The notes under the pieces are model-generated. The model made no database searches, had not been told where the DNA came from, and saw nothing but the letters and a program-made list of their open reading frames with translations. A stretch of 64,000 bases of DNA from Acidobacteriota bacterium (GTDB lineage Bacteria; Acidobacteriota; Blastocatellia; RBC074). Location of the stretch: contig JACPYM010000064.1 of NCBI GenBank assembly GCA_016196035.1, positions 124,001-188,000 of the forward strand, in the 5' to 3' direction. Numbering within the stretch: position 1 is the stretch's first letter; every line of letters begins with the position of its first letter. This document shows positions 1,100 to 55,709 of the stretch, one piece after another. Position numbers and translations under genes: made by a program.

Positions 1100-1137
1100 A
1101 GGTTTATCTCCTTACTTGATTGAAACAGGTAAAACTA

Positions 1138-1287
1138 GAGCGGGTTGCAGTTGCGTTTACGGGACGCCGGGGCGGTACCGCGCGCGTGAGCAAGCGGAGA
1201 CTATGCCGCTGCACTAATCCGTCCTACGTGACGCGCCGCTTGCTCACGCGCGCGGTACCGTCCCATACACCGTAGTGAAAACCGATC
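1138..1287. mobile_element. TIR element, copy 1 (150 bp core, flanked by TA)
   Basis: A non-coding element with imperfect terminal inverted repeats of about 27 bp, starting GAGCGG at one end and GATCGGTTTTCAC when the other end is read in reverse. TA lies immediately outside both ends (1136-1137 and 1288-1289). Inside is a second inverted repeat, GGTACCGCGCGCGTGAGCA with its complement, at 1174-1197 and 1236-1259. Two further copies occur at 11113-11287 and 14761-15060. It sits between the thioesterase start and the kinase stop. It encodes no transposase, so it looks like a MITE. Confidence 0.75.
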
Positions 1288-3434
1288 TAAGTTGTGTTAG
1301 CCGCGCAGCCCCGCGTTTCCCAGCTTGCGGCTGGGTTGTTGGTTTGCTGAAGCAACGCGGCAAAGCGCGGCCCCAGGTGCGGATCGTTGCGCAAGCCGTC
1401 AAACGCTGGCTCAACGGCCAGCCAGACCAGCCACGCTTCGCGCTCGGTACAAGCGCGCTCCAAACATTCAAGCGTTTTTTCGTTGTTGCCCAGCAGGCAA
1501 TGAATCAGCGCCACCAAATAAAACGAGATGTAGCGTTCAGTGGCGATGCCCATGAGCTTGTCCAATATCGCTGCGGCTTCCTCGCGCAGGCCGGCAGCGG
1601 CCAGCGCCTGCCCATACAGCAGCAACACGAGCGGGCCTTCGTTGGAAAGCTCGACCCAGCGTTTGGCCTCGCTTAAAGCCTCTTCGCGCGCGCCCATCAA
1701 ACGCAGCGTCCAACTCAACCCGTAATGCGCCATCGGATAAAGCGGATGCGCGGCGATGACGCGGCGGTATTGCGCCACGCTCTCGTCAAAGCGGCGCGCG
1801 AAATACAAACACCAGCCCAGGTTGTGACCGTTGTAGGGCGTCAGCGGGTCGAGTTCGAGACCACGCCGGGCGTGCGCCAAGCCTTCTTCAAAACGGCCTT
1901 CCATCGTGAGTTGCAGCGAATAGCAGATGTGCGCGTGCGCGTTGTGCGGATTCAACTCGATGGCGCGGCGGCACGCCTCTTCACCGCGCGCCCAATCGTA
2001 ATCGCCGACCAAGACGGCAAACCCAAGTGCGGCGTAGCCTTCTGAAAGCTCGCGGTCGAGTTCAATCGCTTTGGCAGCGGCGGCGCTGGCGGCGCGATAA
2101 CACTCATGGGGCGGCAGCACGCCATACACGCCCAGCCAGTTGTAATAGTCGGCAATCCCGGCATAAGGCAGCGCATATTGCGGGTCGAGCGCAATCGCCT
2201 GGTGATAGGCCACCAGCGCTTTGGCGAAACCTTCCTCGGTGAAGGTGTTCCAGTGATAGCGTCCGCGCAGATAAGCCTCGAACGCCGCCGGGTCGTTGGT
2301 GCCGCGCTTGTTCAATTGACGACGCTCTTCGCCCGTCAAACGCGGCACGAGCACTTTGGCGACTTGCGCGGTGACGGCGTCTTCGAGACTGAGCACGTCG
2401 GTGAAGCGTTCGTCGAATTGTTGCGCCCAGGCGCTCGCGCCCTGCCGCACATCGAGCAATTGCAATGACACGCGCATGCGGTCGCCCGTGCGCTTGATAC
2501 GCCCGTCGAGCACGAAATCAACCTTGAGTTCGCGCCCGGCGGCCAGCGGGTCAGCGGTATCGTCGCCATAGCGCAAGACGGAACTGGTCGGACGCACGGC
2601 CAAGCTGCGCACATTGCTCAAGCGTGTGATCAGGGCATCGGCAAAGCCCACGCTCAGATATTTCTCGCCCGTGTCTTCCTGCACCGGGAAGGCCAGCAAC
2701 TTGAGCGGCAGAATGGCAATGCTCGTCGTCCCGCTGGCTTGCTCGCGCGGCGCGGGCAACGGCCTCGTCGCTCTGGGGTCGGGGATGTAAACCGGCGCGG
2801 AAATCGGGCGGCCATCCAGATGCCGCGCGATGTCTTCGCGCAATTCGGCGGCGGATTGATAGCGCTGGCGCGGGTCTTTTCTGAGCGCCTTGAGCACAAT
2901 CCGGTCAAGGTTGCCCGCCAATTCGCGCTGCAACGTTTCGAGATCAGCGCCGCGCGCGTGATAAATCGCGTCGAGCGTCAGCGCGCCCGGCAGCGTTAGA
3001 TGATCGGCGCGCGTGAGGCTGGCGCTCGGCAGTTCCGGCTCTTCTTCGCAAACGACGCGCGCAATCTCGTGCATCGCGCGGCTGCGCAAGCGCAACGGAC
3101 GCTGGCCGGTCAGCAGTTCGTAAAGCACCGTGCCCAGACTGTAAACATCACTGGTCGGTTTGGCGCGTTCGCCGCGCACCTGTTCGGGGCTGGCGTATTC
3201 GGGCGTCATCATACGCAGCGCCGTCCCGGTGACATCAATCGTGTCGGCGGCCAATTCTGGTTGCAGCAGTTTGGCAATACCGAAATCGAGCAGCCGGGGC
3301 GCGCCGTCCGCCGTGACGAGAATGTTCGACGGTTTGATGTCCCGATGGACGACCAGATTTTGATGCGCGAACTGCACCGCCTCGCAGATGAGTTGGAACA
3401 AGCGCAGCCGCTCCGCGATGACCAGTTGGCACAC
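1287..3434 (-). CDS. Ser/Thr protein kinase C-lobe, TolB-like and TPR regions (downstream part of an interrupted gene)
   Basis: The larger, 3' part of a eukaryotic-like kinase gene, in the same reading frame as the ORF at 3438-3935 and separated from it only by one TGA. It contains the catalytic loop VVHRDIKPSNILV, the DFG motif (LLDFGIAKL) and the activation segment TPEYASPEQVRG. A TolB-like region follows (AILPLKLLAFPV... ADALITRLSN... VDFVLDGRI), then several TPR units (about residues 365-690 of this part). No membrane helix separates kinase and TolB-like region, unlike many relatives. A GTG at 3432-3434 could restart translation, but the product would lack the ATP-binding lobe. The stop codon TAG overlaps the edge of TIR element copy 1. 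It is the last gene of the efflux operon. Confidence 0.85.
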   Translation of the reverse strand: MCQLVIAERLRLFQLICEAVQFAHQNLVVHRDIKPSNILVTADGAPRLLDFGIAKLLQPELAADTIDVTGTALRMMTPEYASPEQVRGERAKPTSDVYSLGTVLYELLTGQRPLRLRSRAMHEIARVVCEEEPELPSASLTRADHLTLPGALTLDAIYHARGADLETLQRELAGNLDRIVLKALRKDPRQRYQSAAELREDIARHLDGRPISAPVYIPDPRATRPLPAPREQASGTTSIAILPLKLLAFPVQEDTGEKYLSVGFADALITRLSNVRSLAVRPTSSVLRYGDDTADPLAAGRELKVDFVLDGRIKRTGDRMRVSLQLLDVRQGASAWAQQFDERFTDVLSLEDAVTAQVAKVLVPRLTGEERRQLNKRGTNDPAAFEAYLRGRYHWNTFTEEGFAKALVAYHQAIALDPQYALPYAGIADYYNWLGVYGVLPPHECYRAASAAAAKAIELDRELSEGYAALGFAVLVGDYDWARGEEACRRAIELNPHNAHAHICYSLQLTMEGRFEEGLAHARRGLELDPLTPYNGHNLGWCLYFARRFDESVAQYRRVIAAHPLYPMAHYGLSWTLRLMGAREEALSEAKRWVELSNEGPLVLLLYGQALAAAGLREEAAAILDKLMGIATERYISFYLVALIHCLLGNNEKTLECLERACTEREAWLVWLAVEPAFDGLRNDPHLGPRFAALLQQTNNPAASWETRGCAANTT

Positions 3435-9200: not shown

Positions 9201-10565
9201 TTATTGATCGCCGCCGAGGGCTTTCTCGAAATCGGCGCGCGCCGTCCAGCAAGCCAACAACGCTTGTTGATATTGGTGATTGGCATCGGCCAGCGTGGTC
9301 TGCGCTTGCAGCACGTCTTTGAGCAGCGCCGCTTGCGCGTTGTAGCGGTTCGCCGCGACGCGCACTTGTTCGCGCGCCGATTCCTGGGTCAGTTGCCCGA
9401 TGGTCAGCAATTGGCGCGTCTGTTGCAGCTTGCGGAACTTGCTGTTGACCTCGCTCAGCACCGAGCTTTCGGCACTCTGCAAATTGAGTTCGGCTTGCGT
9501 CAGGCTGCGATCCTTTTCGGCCAGTTCGCGCTTTTTGCGGCCCCAGTCAAACGGCTCCCAACTCAAGCTCACGCCCGCCGTGGTGATCTGGCGCGGCACG
9601 AAATTGCCGCTCTGCGGCGAGATGTAATTGAAGCTCAAACTGACTTCCGGCAGATATTCCGACTTCTTGATGCGCCGGTCGTAGTTGGCCTGTTTGAGCT
9701 TGAGCCGCGCCTCTTGCATTTCGGGCCGCTGGTTGAGTGCCTGTTGATGCGCCGCGTCCAAATCCATTTCGGTGTGCGTGAAGACCGGAGCCGGACTGAC
9801 CGAAAACGCGGTGTGAATGTCGCGGCCCAGCAATTGATTGAGTTGTTCCTTTTGCGCCGCCAGCGTGTCGTTGAGTTCCAGCGCGTCGTATTCGGCTTTC
9901 GCCAACCGGGTTTTGACTTCCAGGCTTTCGCCCTTGAGCGCGACCTGTTGCACAACGTATTCGCCGGTCACGCGGTCGAGTTCGCGATACAGCTTGAGCG
10001 TCTCTTCATTGGTGCGCAGCGCGCTCTGGGTTTGCAGGATGGCGTAATAAGTCTGCTTGACGTTGTTGACGATGGTTTGCTGCTGCGCCCGCACTTCCTG
10101 TTTGGCTAACTCGCGTCCGACGCCCAGTTGTTTCAGATTCAGCCCGATGCGATAAAGCTGCGAGAGCGGCTGATTGACCTGCCCGGCCAGCACCGTGTTC
10201 AGCTTGCGCGGCGTGCTGATGATGGTCTCGGTCGAAGGGATCGGCCCCAGCCCCGGATAATCGCCGAACACGCCCCGGTCAAATTTGAAATCGAGCGTCG
10301 AGAGCAATTGCGAACTGGACGCCGTGAATTTGAATTGCGGCAGCCGTTGCGTGCGCGCCGCCGCCACACGGTCACTGGCCTTGTCCACTTCGAGCGCGGC
10401 GGTTTTGACCTGCCGGTTATCCAACAGCGCCAGCGCGATGGCGTGTTCCAGCGTTAATTGCTCGCCCTTTGCCAGCGCGACGTCGGTGGGTTGTTGCCCT
10501 TGGACAGCGCGTGAACTGCCCAGCAAGAGCAGCAGTGCGAATAAGAATGTGATTCGAGTTTGCAT
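9201..10565 (-). CDS. TolC-family outer-membrane efflux protein
   Basis: A 454-aa outer-membrane channel of the tripartite exporter. The ATG at 10563-10565 is preceded by GGAGGA with about 5 nt spacing and starts a signal peptide (ITFLFALLLLLGSSRAVQG). An open frame continues upstream for 124 codons but has no such features and crosses the sigma-54 promoter. Two OEP repeats are visible: LTLEHAIALALLDNRQVKTAALEV at the start and the region LDAAHQQALNQRPEMQEARLKL near the middle, each followed by long helices. It is the first gene of the operon and lies behind a sigma-54-type promoter with a shared upstream block. Confidence 0.92.
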   Translation of the reverse strand: MQTRITFLFALLLLLGSSRAVQGQQPTDVALAKGEQLTLEHAIALALLDNRQVKTAALEVDKASDRVAAARTQRLPQFKFTASSSQLLSTLDFKFDRGVFGDYPGLGPIPSTETIISTPRKLNTVLAGQVNQPLSQLYRIGLNLKQLGVGRELAKQEVRAQQQTIVNNVKQTYYAILQTQSALRTNEETLKLYRELDRVTGEYVVQQVALKGESLEVKTRLAKAEYDALELNDTLAAQKEQLNQLLGRDIHTAFSVSPAPVFTHTEMDLDAAHQQALNQRPEMQEARLKLKQANYDRRIKKSEYLPEVSLSFNYISPQSGNFVPRQITTAGVSLSWEPFDWGRKKRELAEKDRSLTQAELNLQSAESSVLSEVNSKFRKLQQTRQLLTIGQLTQESAREQVRVAANRYNAQAALLKDVLQAQTTLADANHQYQQALLACWTARADFEKALGGDQ

Positions 10566-10719: not shown

Positions 10720-10813
10720 GAATGCCGAGCAGCGAGTGCAAACTCTTTAAGCTGCTGATCTGAAAAGGATTTTCTTGACGTGCGAGGCAGCAAGCCGAGG
10801 CAAATGACGACGA

Positions 10814-10862
10814 GTGCCGAAGCGTTTGCCGACGAAATATCGTCAAGTGCCGAAATATCGGA
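10814..10862. promoter_or_regulatory. Putative enhancer (UAS) for a sigma-54 activator, copy A
   Basis: A 49-bp block identical to 16173-16221 except for one base. It holds two near-palindromes built on CGAAATATCG: GACGAAATATCGTC and CCGAAATATCGG, with a further GTGCCGAAGCG at its edge. It starts about 95 bp upstream of the -24 box, the usual distance for a bacterial enhancer-binding protein. The activator at 16283-18877 is the obvious candidate to bind it; this is inference. Confidence 0.65.
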
Positions 10863-11073
10863 ATCAGGGTTGGTGAGGAATGGCGGGTCAGTCACCGCGC
10901 ACTGTTTACGGCGGCTCGCCCACTCGAACAACGGCAACTGAATCCCGCTTCCTGATGCCTGACAACTGGTCTCTTAACAGTTGTCAGGGTTCAGGATTCA
11001 GTTCGGGCGCGTCGTGAGTATGCGCTTGTGAAGGTTTGCGGCAGGTGCTTTCAAGGTGAGGGCATTGATTGAA

Positions 11074-11315
11074 GGTTCAGAGTTCACGCTTTAGCGTGTC
11101 GCTGTCGAATTAGAGCGGTTTGCAGTTGCGTTTACGGGAGTCAGTTGACGCTGGGACAGTACCGCGCGCGGGAGCAAGCGGCGCGTCAAGCTTGCCCCCT
11201 TGGCTGAATTGCCAAAGCTCCGCTTGCTCACGCGCGCGGTACTGTCCCGCTACGTGGTTTTCCCATACATCGAAGTGAAAACCGATCTAACACGCTAAAG
11301 CGTGAACTCTGAACC
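11074..11315. repeat. Palindromic repeat split by TIR element copy 2
   Basis: The left arm (11074-11099, GGTTCAGAGTTCACGC then TTTAGCGTGT) and the right arm (11290-11315) are exact complements, but are separated by the 175-bp TIR element plus 11 bp and two TA dinucleotides. A related palindrome without an insertion lies at 18979-19075. Removing the element and one TA restores a hairpin with a 13-nt loop, the same loop length as in the intact copy. Confidence 0.85.
11113..11287. mobile_element. TIR element, copy 2 (175 bp core), nested in a palindrome
   Basis: The ends match the other copies: GAGCGGTTTGCAGTTGCG on the left, and the right end reads GATCGGTTTTCACTTCG in reverse. TA flanks both sides (11111-11112 and 11288-11289). 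Internal inverted repeats of the GCTTGCTCACGCGCGCGG type are present. It has no coding capacity. The TA flanks and terminal repeats suggest mobilisation in trans by an IS630/Tc1-mariner-type transposase, which is not present in the window. Confidence 0.8.
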
Positions 11316-11444: not shown

Positions 11445-13910
11445 TTACCGGCGCAACCGTCCGCCGCCACGCAGCCCTCCTCCTCCGCCAAAGCCGCCAC
11501 CGGAACCAAGGCGTGGCCCGACTACACCGGAATTCCCGTTGAGGCCGCCCGCCGTGCGGAAGCTGTCCCAACGTTGCTGCCCAGTGGCCCGCGCCGCCTG
11601 GTGGTCTTGAATGCGCTGGGCATCGGCGGGCTTGTTCACCCCCGACCAGCCGTTGTCGGTGTGTTGCTGCAAACCGTCGGACTTGTTGTAGCGATAGACT
11701 TCGCCATCGTGCCCGGCGTAAACATTGTTCTTCCCGACGGCCACGCCCGTATCCGTCCGTGTGTTATAGGCGAAGCCGCGTCCGGCTGCCGACACTTGCC
11801 CCGTCGAGGCGTCGTAAGTCGCGCCTGCCGCGCCGCCACTGACGACACCCGTGCGCGGGTTGTAGCCCGCCCCGCGCGCGCCAGCCGCAGCGTTGCCCGT
11901 GTAAGCATTGCTCACCGCACCCGCTTGCCCGACTGCGCTGCGGCCCGTGTAGGGGTTATAGGCCACGCCGCCTGCGCCCGAAACGGTCGTGCCGGTGTAG
12001 ACATTCGTGTTCGTGAACCCGCGCCCGTTATAGCGCGTGCCGGTTGCCGTGTTCACGCCGGAGAAAGCACCGCCGTGCCCGACATTGCCGGTGTAAGGAT
12101 TGGCCCACGCCGCGCGCGTTCCGGCATACGCCACATTGCCCCAATGCCCATAGACATTCGCCGCCACCACGCCGCCCCACGCCGCCGGATAGTAAGCAGC
12201 GGCAGTCCACGCTCCCGGATAGTAGTAAGAACTCCAGCCGTAGCCGATGCCGAAGGCCACGCCCCAACCCGCGTATGTATTCCAGGTGAAGCCCGCGCCA
12301 TAGCCGTAGGTACAGCCCCAGCCGTAATAGTAGCTGCCGACATACGGCGCATAGCGCCAGCCCGTGCCGTACACGACGACGTTGTTAGAAGACACGACCG
12401 TGCCGTAATAGCCCGGCGTATAACCAACATAGACCGTCTCCGCCGTCGCGCCGTAGACCTTAACGTAGGTCACATTGTGCACCGGCGAACTGGGCGGAAT
12501 CGTGTAAATCACCGTCGGCACCGAAGCCGCGACAGTCCACGGCCCCGTCGCCGCACTCGCCACAAACCAGACACCATTCAGCACTGCGTAGTAGCTGTCG
12601 GCGCTGACCGCAATCACCGGCGTCGCCGTATTCACGGCATATTGCAGCGTCGTGCTTTCGATGGGCCTGAACTGCGGCTGGCCGTCGTAACTCACCGTGA
12701 GACTGGCCGCATTGCGCGAGATGGTCGCGGTTTGCGGCACCTCGTTGGCGATCAGGGCTTCCAGCGCTTGCGGTGTGCCCGGCACTGAAGCCAGCACGCT
12801 GGCCTTTTCATGACTCGGCGAAATCCGGGCGAAGTCGGCGGGCAAGCGTTCGCCAGGCACGTATTCCCACGGCCCGTTCATGGACTTGCCGCGAAACCAG
12901 CGGCCCGCAATCAGCATATAGCGATCCTGCGCGACGGTTTCCAGAAAGATGTCGTTTTCGGTGTTCGTCACATACACAAGCTGCGTCCCGGCGATGGGCG
13001 CGAGTTGCGGCTCGCCTTGCGTTTGCAGCAACTCCGCCGGTTTCAGACTGACATAAATCACCGGCAAGGCATTGCGTTGCATGGCTTCGCTCAACGTGGG
13101 CCGCTGGTCGCCTGCGCCATCCAGCAAATCCACCTGCGCTGTTTGCGCCGCCACGGCCAACGCCTTTTTCAAATCGGACGGCGTACTCGCCGCCACGCTC
13201 CACGGGCCAGTCACGCTGTCCGCTTCCAGCCAGCCATCCAGCAGATGCAGATAGCATTTGCCTTTGTCGGCGTCGCGCACGATCAGCACGCGCGTATTGA
13301 TGATGCGTTGCAGATGCGTGTCTTTGACCGGACGCCAGACCGGTTCGCCATCAACCAACACCAGAATTGCCTTGCTCGTACTGAATAGGATTTGCGGCGG
13401 TTGGTTGTTGAGCTGATAGCCTGCGCTCGCCGTCCGGGCCTGCGTGATGGACATCTCAGCCAACAAGCGATCAAGCGCGATCACTTCGTCGGTCTTCAGC
13501 GCCCGCGCTTGCAGGATGCCGTGGTAATGGGTGGCGCTTTCGGTGTTCGCGGGGAAACTGACTTTGGTGATGTTGAAATCAGTCAGCGTCACCAGCCGGT
13601 TGACCTTGTCTACCTCCGTGCGCGCGGTGAACCAGACCACGCCATAGGCCGGTTGTTTGCTCTGGCCGCTGGTGACGGCCACGGCGGCGCGCGCGGCAAA
13701 TTTGTTGTCTTGCCATTTTTCGATCTGCGGTTGATAGACGGCAAAGGAGGTCGCGCCGTTGGTGAACGTGCGCGGCCAGCCTTTGTCGGTAAAGGCGTTT
13801 GTCTTCGCGTTTGGCTGGGCAGCGGGTTGCGCACAGGCCGACAAACAGGCCGCCATCAGCCAGCAAAGCGCGCCTAAGAGCGCGTAAAAGCGCGTGGCAC
13901 TTCGTTTCAT
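11445..13910 (-). CDS. Large secreted lipoprotein with Tyr/Gly-rich C-terminal half
   Basis: An 821-aa exported protein of unknown function. The N-terminus is a signal segment ending LMAACLSACAQP, a plausible lipobox. Residues about 40-470 look globular and contain repeated units of the type PVWRPVKDT...LLDGWLEADSVTGPWSVA and LNGVWFVASAATGPWTVA, a pattern I know from predicted proteins often labelled carbohydrate-binding family V/XII. The rest is low-complexity, rich in Tyr, Gly and Trp (YYYGWGCTYGYGAGF), with short repeats such as NPYTGNVG/NPYTGRSA, and ends in a Gly/Arg tail. Its start codon overlaps the stop of the 239-aa gene (ATGA), so the two are translationally coupled. A structural cell-envelope role is plausible but not shown. 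Confidence 0.75.
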   Translation of the reverse strand: MKRSATRFYALLGALCWLMAACLSACAQPAAQPNAKTNAFTDKGWPRTFTNGATSFAVYQPQIEKWQDNKFAARAAVAVTSGQSKQPAYGVVWFTARTEVDKVNRLVTLTDFNITKVSFPANTESATHYHGILQARALKTDEVIALDRLLAEMSITQARTASAGYQLNNQPPQILFSTSKAILVLVDGEPVWRPVKDTHLQRIINTRVLIVRDADKGKCYLHLLDGWLEADSVTGPWSVAASTPSDLKKALAVAAQTAQVDLLDGAGDQRPTLSEAMQRNALPVIYVSLKPAELLQTQGEPQLAPIAGTQLVYVTNTENDIFLETVAQDRYMLIAGRWFRGKSMNGPWEYVPGERLPADFARISPSHEKASVLASVPGTPQALEALIANEVPQTATISRNAASLTVSYDGQPQFRPIESTTLQYAVNTATPVIAVSADSYYAVLNGVWFVASAATGPWTVAASVPTVIYTIPPSSPVHNVTYVKVYGATAETVYVGYTPGYYGTVVSSNNVVVYGTGWRYAPYVGSYYYGWGCTYGYGAGFTWNTYAGWGVAFGIGYGWSSYYYPGAWTAAAYYPAAWGGVVAANVYGHWGNVAYAGTRAAWANPYTGNVGHGGAFSGVNTATGTRYNGRGFTNTNVYTGTTVSGAGGVAYNPYTGRSAVGQAGAVSNAYTGNAAAGARGAGYNPRTGVVSGGAAGATYDASTGQVSAAGRGFAYNTRTDTGVAVGKNNVYAGHDGEVYRYNKSDGLQQHTDNGWSGVNKPADAQRIQDHQAARATGQQRWDSFRTAGGLNGNSGVVGPRLGSGGGFGGGGGLRGGGRLRR

Positions 13911-14626: not shown

Positions 14627-14760
14627 CAAAATTCTCCTTCCTTCTCGCGTTGTGTTTGCAAGCGGAGAGAACAGTCTCTCCGCTTGCCTCGTTGTTTTCA
14701 TTGGTAGTGATAAAAATGCAGGGCCGCATTTGCAGCCGCGTCACGACGAGCCTGAATTTA

Positions 14761-15060
14761 GTTCGGTTTTCACTACGGTGTACGGGAAACCGCGCAGCGG
14801 GGCAGTCCCGCGCGCGTGAGCAAGTGGACGTTGACATTGGGGCAGTAGGGGGCAAGCTTGACGCGCCGCTTGCTCACGCGCGCGGGACTGCCCCAATGTC
14901 AACGTCCACTTGCTCACGCGCGCGGTGCTGTCCCAACGTCAACGTCCGCTTGCTCACGCGCGCGGTACTGTCCCAACGTCAAGCTTGACGTCCGCTTGCT
15001 CCCGCGCGCGGGACTGTCCCAACGTCAACTGACTCCCGTAAACGCAACTGCAAACCGCTC
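14761..15060. mobile_element. TIR element, copy 3 (300 bp core), inverted and internally expanded
   Basis: This copy is in the opposite orientation: it begins GTTCGGTTTTCACTACGG and ends with the complement of GAGCGGTTTGCAG. TA lies outside both ends (14759-14760 and 15061-15062). It is twice as long as copy 1 because the internal unit CTTGCTCACGCGCGCGG is repeated four times in tandem (starting 14869, 14909, 14949 and 14994), facing one inverted copy at about 14802-14828. It lies between the DUF4136 gene and the 239-aa gene and may carry the latter's promoter region. Confidence 0.78.
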
Positions 15061-15150
15061 TAGTCCGGCGTTTTCAATCCCGCAACTAACTTCGATTGCC
15101 GTGCTGCGGCAATCACAAGGCGGCCCTACCTCGCCCTTACTGCCTCCTTT

Positions 15151-18978: not shown

Positions 18979-19075
18979 AATGGCATTGAATCGAGGTTTA
19001 GAGTTCACGCTTCAGCGTGTCCAAGTCGAGTCAACACGCTGAAGCGTGAACTCTAAACCTCGATTCGATGCCATT
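18979..19075. repeat. Intact 42-bp-arm palindromic repeat
   Basis: Left arm 18979-19020 and right arm 19034-19075 are complementary with a single mismatch, around a 13-nt loop (CCAAGTCGAGTCA). The inner part (GAGTTCACGCTTCAGCGTGT) matches, with small changes, the arms at 11074-11099 and 11290-11315. It lies between the divergent activator and PerR-like genes and could end transcripts from neither; a repeat-family insertion is the simpler reading. Confidence 0.9.
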
Positions 19076-55513: not shown

Positions 55514-55533
55514 AGCCTTCCGGTTGGCGTGGC

Positions 55534-55635
55534 CTTTGGAGTGCGCGCGGCACAGGCCGCCGCTTTGGTAGTCCTTTGATCTATAGCTAACACAGGGAAA
55601 CCAAAGCGGCGGCCTGTGCCGCGCGCACTCCAAAG
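55534..55635. repeat. Perfect 35-bp-arm palindrome
   Basis: Arm 1 (55534-55568, CTTTGGAGTGCGCGCGGCAC...) and arm 2 (55601-55635) are exact complements with a 32-nt loop. It lies between the bacilliredoxin stop and the FG-GAP protein start, where it could end transcription, but the length and perfection point to a recently placed repeat. Confidence 0.9.
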
Positions 55636-55709
55636 ACGCTACGCATCAAAGATACTTTTCCCCGCCCCACAAGCGCCCCACCATTTCCGCTCTCATCGCA
55701 AGGTTCAAG

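Follow-up and report, generated by a model that had tools for sequence, protein, structure and literature searches.

The window analysed here is a stretch of 64,000 nt (positions 124,001 to 188,000 of contig C64) from an Acidobacteriota genome of 9.6 Mb in 139 contigs (G000, the source genome). A palindrome lies between a gene for a TolC-family outer membrane efflux protein and an 821-aa gene for which no match was found in Pfam or NCBIfam. The arms of the palindrome are separated by 190 nt, which comprise, in order, the sequence CGCTGTCGAATTA (11100-11112), the segment GAGCGG...CGATC (11113-11287) and a TA (11288-11289). As proposed in an earlier note on this DNA, an element with terminal inverted repeats is nested in the palindrome; it is 175 nt long, bordered by TA, imperfect in its terminal repeats, and splits perfect arms of 26 bp. 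Within the element a 32-nt loop is closed by an inner stem of 32 bp with 94% pairing. Deletion of 11113-11287 together with one TA indeed leaves a 13-nt loop, CGCTGTCGAATTA, in the reconstructed empty site, and the intact relative to which the note had pointed, at 18979-19075, carries the 13-nt loop ascribed to it. The interrupted palindrome retains a remnant of the repeat's outer end on the left, while the corresponding outer end on the right is absent. An Rfam search returned only sub-threshold matches to eukaryotic microRNAs, which we read as chance. The features are listed in Table 1.

Table 1. Features of the interrupted palindrome and its surroundings, in window coordinates.
Feature	Position	Strand	Remarks
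TolC-family outer membrane efflux protein gene, adjoins palindrome	9201..10526	-	PF02321; TIGR01844 below cut-off
Remnant of the palindrome repeat's outer end	11060..11075	+	GGGCATTGATTGAAGG (family end AATGGCATTGAATTAAGG)
Interrupted palindrome, left arm	11074..11099	+	26 nt, 100% complementary to 11290-11315
Loop of reconstructed empty site	11100..11112	+	13 nt; putative target TA is its end, 11111-11112
MITE left terminal inverted repeat, including TA	11111..11137	+	TAGAGCGGTTTGCAGTTGCGTTTACGG
MITE, probable IS630 type	11113..11287	+	175 nt
MITE inner stem, left arm	11153..11184	+	
MITE inner stem, right arm	11217..11248	-	
MITE right terminal inverted repeat, including TA	11263..11289	-	TAGATCGGTTTTCACTTCGATGTATGG
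Putative second copy of duplicated TA	11288..11289	+	
Interrupted palindrome, right arm	11290..11315	-	
821-aa gene, opposite flank of palindrome	11445..13910	-	
Second MITE copy in window	1136..1289	+	154 nt with both TAs
Third MITE copy in window	14759..15062	-	304 nt with both TAs
Uninterrupted palindrome family member	18979..19075	.	42-nt arms, one mismatch; 13-nt loop CCAAGTCGAGTCA (compared by eye)

The inserted element belongs to a large family. Its inner motif matches nine times in the window against 0.31 expected, far beyond chance. With 40 of its 450 candidates scored, blast of the site against the source genome yielded at least 84 matches (E ≤ 0.01). Among the blast matches listed, most full-length forward ones end at most a few bases from 11111 and 11290, at the TAs. 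A pattern describing the family ends, with up to two mismatches, occurs 364 times in the source genome (190 forward and 174 reverse), while the reversed control yields 0 matches. Stretches around the listed copies contain 96 full copies, 95 of which start and 92 of which end with TA. From a larger set of stretches we collected 110 full copies, defined by a TA at both ends, a total of six mismatches at most and flanks of 150 nt, which leaves out L003 and other diverged copies. Most of these are 170-189 nt long including both TAs, and their flanks are nearly all unrelated. Like a MITE, the element is non-coding (judged from ORFs of at least 100 aa only), shorter than about 300 bp and present in multiple copies.

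In the copy at 14759-15062 the interior is enlarged by repeated inner-stem units of approximately 40 nt each. The loop between the inner arms (window 11185-11216) occurs either way round while the outer ends stay the same: among 60 copies, namely those of the 110 that are 174-184 nt long with unlike ends, 34 loops are forward, 16 reversed and 10 not orientable. Loop orientation differs between copies whose outer parts are near-identical (L028 and L090; L071:8361 and L059:14868), which points to repeated inversion of the MITE loops between their inner arms.

Ends of the MITE type are also found in a relative, G010 (L118), at positions 2118 (no mismatch to the family pattern) and 3110 (one mismatch). 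There they flank a 1.0-kb IS630-family insertion sequence that is split between two ORFs, one with the HTH part and the other with the DDE_3 part. The latter matches PF13358 (E 2.2e-31) and scores 124.3 bits against the NCBIfam IS630 model (cut-off 100); a PDB sequence search with the C-terminal part of the transposase gave nothing at E ≤ 0.001. The terminal inverted repeats of the MITE are thus common to an IS630-family element, that of L118. A similar end pair with two ORFs between is present on a Pyrinomonadaceae contig (L048). In the source genome the search made found no intact IS630 of the MITE's type, only a broken IS630 remnant with one recognisable end (C117:66072-66571). About 600 nt from this remnant, a tandem array of CTAACTCTTCGCGC-like units occupies L162 2390-2530.

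The target site conforms to YTAR in 106 of the 110 MITE copies (35 CTAA, 34 TTAG, 30 TTAA and 7 CTAG), as compared to 177 of 829 TA sites in the flanks of the copies as background. With ends that match an IS630-family insertion sequence, a large family and a YTAR target, the most fitting reading of the element is an IS630-type MITE mobilised in trans. Judging from these sequence features an IS630 transposase presumably did the work, and we infer that the source enzyme has been lost from the source genome or is unassembled there.

We analysed whether the location within a loop reflects the MITE family at large. Hairpin-loop targeting, suggested at first by the flanks, was not sustained over all copies. 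Inverted repeats (score of at least 12, loop up to 90 nt; home-made gene mask, several thresholds tried) span 12 of the 110 MITE copies and 94 of 1,262 intergenic YTAR sites (p 0.19). For loops of up to 20 nt the counts are 1 of 110, the copy at 11113-11287 itself, and 12 of 1,262 (p 1.0), and a cruder gene mask gave 12 of 96 and 230 of 2,172 (p 0.50). For copies with both flanks intergenic the numbers are 10 of 59 versus 94 of 1,262 control sites (p 0.021, uncorrected), and an earlier run gave 10 of 50 versus 59 of 666 (p 0.021). A local-TA control proved uninformative and was discarded: its sites are near the insertion and for the most part fall within the very same loops. An active preference of the MITE or its transposase for hairpin loops, which would make the observed position a matter of targeting, draws on the 12 spanned copies, the intergenic-flank subset and the earlier run, but is unlikely given the values for all copies, for tight loops and for the cruder mask, and the several thresholds tried. 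We read these data as no clear preference for hairpin loops. The loop position of 11113-11287 most likely reflects chance, since the intergenic DNA here is rich in palindromes. Just as doubtful is a broader scheme in which the stem-loops of this genome would be structurally active DNA: MITE insertion would show a modest bias towards long intergenic inverted repeats, and MITE (and perhaps palindrome) loops would flip their orientation between the arms, so that hairpins would serve both as landing sites and as inversion switches.

Insertion with duplication of the TA, as postulated in the earlier note, is supported by the fixed-end, TA-bordered family and by paralogous empty sites with one TA. 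The near invariance of TA at both MITE ends is, on its own, equally compatible with a TA that is part of the ends and no duplicated target. The paralogs discriminate between the two. In five pairs, one-TA reconstructions align without gaps at the junction with MITE-free paralogs: L028 with L074 (90% over 160 nt), L059 with L056 (TTTAGG kept, with a gap further away from the junction), L003 with L092, L107 with L100 and L106 with L097. When 0, 1 or 2 TAs were compared across all copies, 24 of 110 sites gave a spanning hit, for 10 of which the best hit was the site's own locus. Among the 14 non-self spanning paralogs, seven fit best with one TA, one is a tie between one and two, four fit best with none and two with two. 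The misfits are mostly gapped, one-sided or within variable loops: L076 and L079 lie inside palindromes with variable loops, L105 and L058 reach only 64-69% alignment identity, and in L234 and L092 a good match is confined to one side. At the target position the paralogs of L003 and L028 have CA and that of L106 has GG, and these pairs therefore support the length of the target and not its identity; the paralogs of L059 and L107 have TA. L003 itself ends in TG instead of TA. As exactly one TA is the best paralog fit at the palindrome and for L028, L059, L106 and L107, it is very improbable that the TA belongs to the MITE ends. A TA target with duplication is what the paralogous empty sites of the family display.

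The search for an orthologous empty site used the 441-aa tolC-like protein as query against 11 genomes of the family, one of them the source genome. The best relatives of this protein are 72% identical, and an inverted-repeat scan of six loci, including its own, detected the palindrome in none of the five relatives. Four of the 11 genomes, the source genome among them, contain the 821-aa neighbour. Several kb separate its gene from the tolC-like gene in G007 and G009, where its orientation also differs, and in G003 matches to the two genes are on separate contigs. Using blastn with the intergenic region against the relatives, no match across the insertion site was obtained; matches are located at the end of the 821-aa gene, with short ones elsewhere, such as those to L147 (79% over 72 nt) and L148 (77% over 78 nt) at window 10811-10888. 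With no orthologous empty site found among the relatives' genomes by tolC-like loci, 821-aa neighbour or blastn, the evidence for insertion is paralogous only.

The palindrome is likewise a repeat family. Its core pattern has four matches in the window versus 0.26 expected, far beyond chance. In the source genome a pattern search identified 19 copies with exact arms, and blast gave 77 matches, most places being counted on both strands. The core palindrome TCACGCTTCAGCGTG...CACGCTGAAGCGTGA occurs in two repeat classes, which differ in their outer ends and have 13-nt and 16-nt loops, respectively (L031-L045, L129-L145). Ten other genomes of the order were searched, and four of them (G004, G007, G008 and G009) carry it too, with many other loops. 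In addition, the source genome harbours numerous families of long palindromes whose arms are conserved and whose loops vary, frequently spanning about 30-90 nt, located at window 55526-55646, in L006, L015, L028, L059, L076, L079 and L082 and in relatives. Counting identical cores once, 38 distinct rows comprise 12 loops of 13 nt, 16 of 16 nt, three of 14 nt and one each of 12 and 15 nt; the remaining five (loops of at least 19 nt) are composites or a diverged copy.

Equal 13-nt loops had been taken as direct evidence for the insertion. With loops of 12 to 16 nt here and a wider range in relatives, loop length alone is weaker evidence than had been claimed, while the loop sequence does support insertion, and the argument rests on sequence rather than length. 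CTAAGTCGAATTA is the sequence of several 13-nt loops; the loop of the rebuilt site, CGCTGTCGAATTA, matches it at 10 of 13 positions and has the same TA (compared by eye). The outer ends of the 13-nt class are often like AATGGCATTGAATTAAG, of which the interrupted copy retains a diverged left one alone.

Each family is also found on its own, and the arms on either side of the insert are undamaged, which argues that the palindrome was there first and that the MITE came later. This order, already suggested in the earlier note, is supported by the independent palindrome family, with 12 distinct 13-nt-loop copies without MITE and a common loop sequence. The arms still match perfectly after the insertion, which suggests either a fairly recent event or later homogenisation. 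That palindrome and MITE form one composite element moving as a unit, as the perfectly concentric arrangement with 26-bp arms intact on both sides might imply, is hardly credible, since the 110 MITE copies lie nearly all at unrelated flanks, about 30 palindromes have no MITE, and among the palindrome blast matches the MITE is flanked by the arms only at C64 135064-135318.

The data demonstrate a family with fixed ends, its YTAR target and empty paralogs that have one TA. We consider it very probable that 11113-11287 is an IS630/Tc1-mariner-type MITE, inserted by an IS630 transposase in trans at a TTAA target in the loop of a pre-existing palindrome with duplication of the TA. An IS630-family transposase, supplied in trans, would have excised the MITE from another site and integrated it at the TTAA target, whose TA constitutes the final two bases of the 13-nt loop; fill-in of the 2-nt gaps would have duplicated this TA. 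The nested insertion is real and well explained by IS630-type transposition, representing a new family member and not a new kind. It is an ordinary case that leaves the knowledge of transposition unchanged, while providing a clean example of one repeat nested in another for which the order of events is known. It also adds a large IS630-type MITE family from an acidobacterial genome whose only transposase of this type found was a broken remnant, and illustrates that paralogous repeats can substitute for a missing orthologous empty site.

A literature search for Acidobacteria, MITE and IS630 found no report in the collection searched. Among the literature consulted, the closest described IS630-linked MITE is RUP of Streptococcus pneumoniae, which is thought to be moved by IS630-Spn1 (PMC2229807). 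Both are short non-coding repeats with about a hundred or more copies, IS630-like ends and a TA target; by description, not sequence, RUP has 107 bp compared to 175 nt for the MITE, and unlike RUP as described, the MITE has an inner 32-bp stem and a loop in both orientations. Correia/NEMIS elements of Neisseria (PMC2229807) are alike by description in their size of 100-200 bp, TA ends and multiple copies. The IS630-family element ISY100 is described in PMC2170065 as inserting almost only at TA and duplicating it, and the title of a reference cited in that paper mentions a CTAG preference of IS630. ISY100/IS630 share with the MITE the cut-and-paste insertion into TA with TA duplication, but are full elements, whereas the MITE is non-coding and uses YTAR (CTAA/TTAG, TTAA and less often CTAG). 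Finally, IS1397, ISKpn1 and IS621 reside in REP palindromes (PMC1525189) and, as at the present locus, constitute mobile elements inside a repeated palindrome; these three target REP specifically, in contrast to the MITE described here, which is of IS630 type and has no clear preference.
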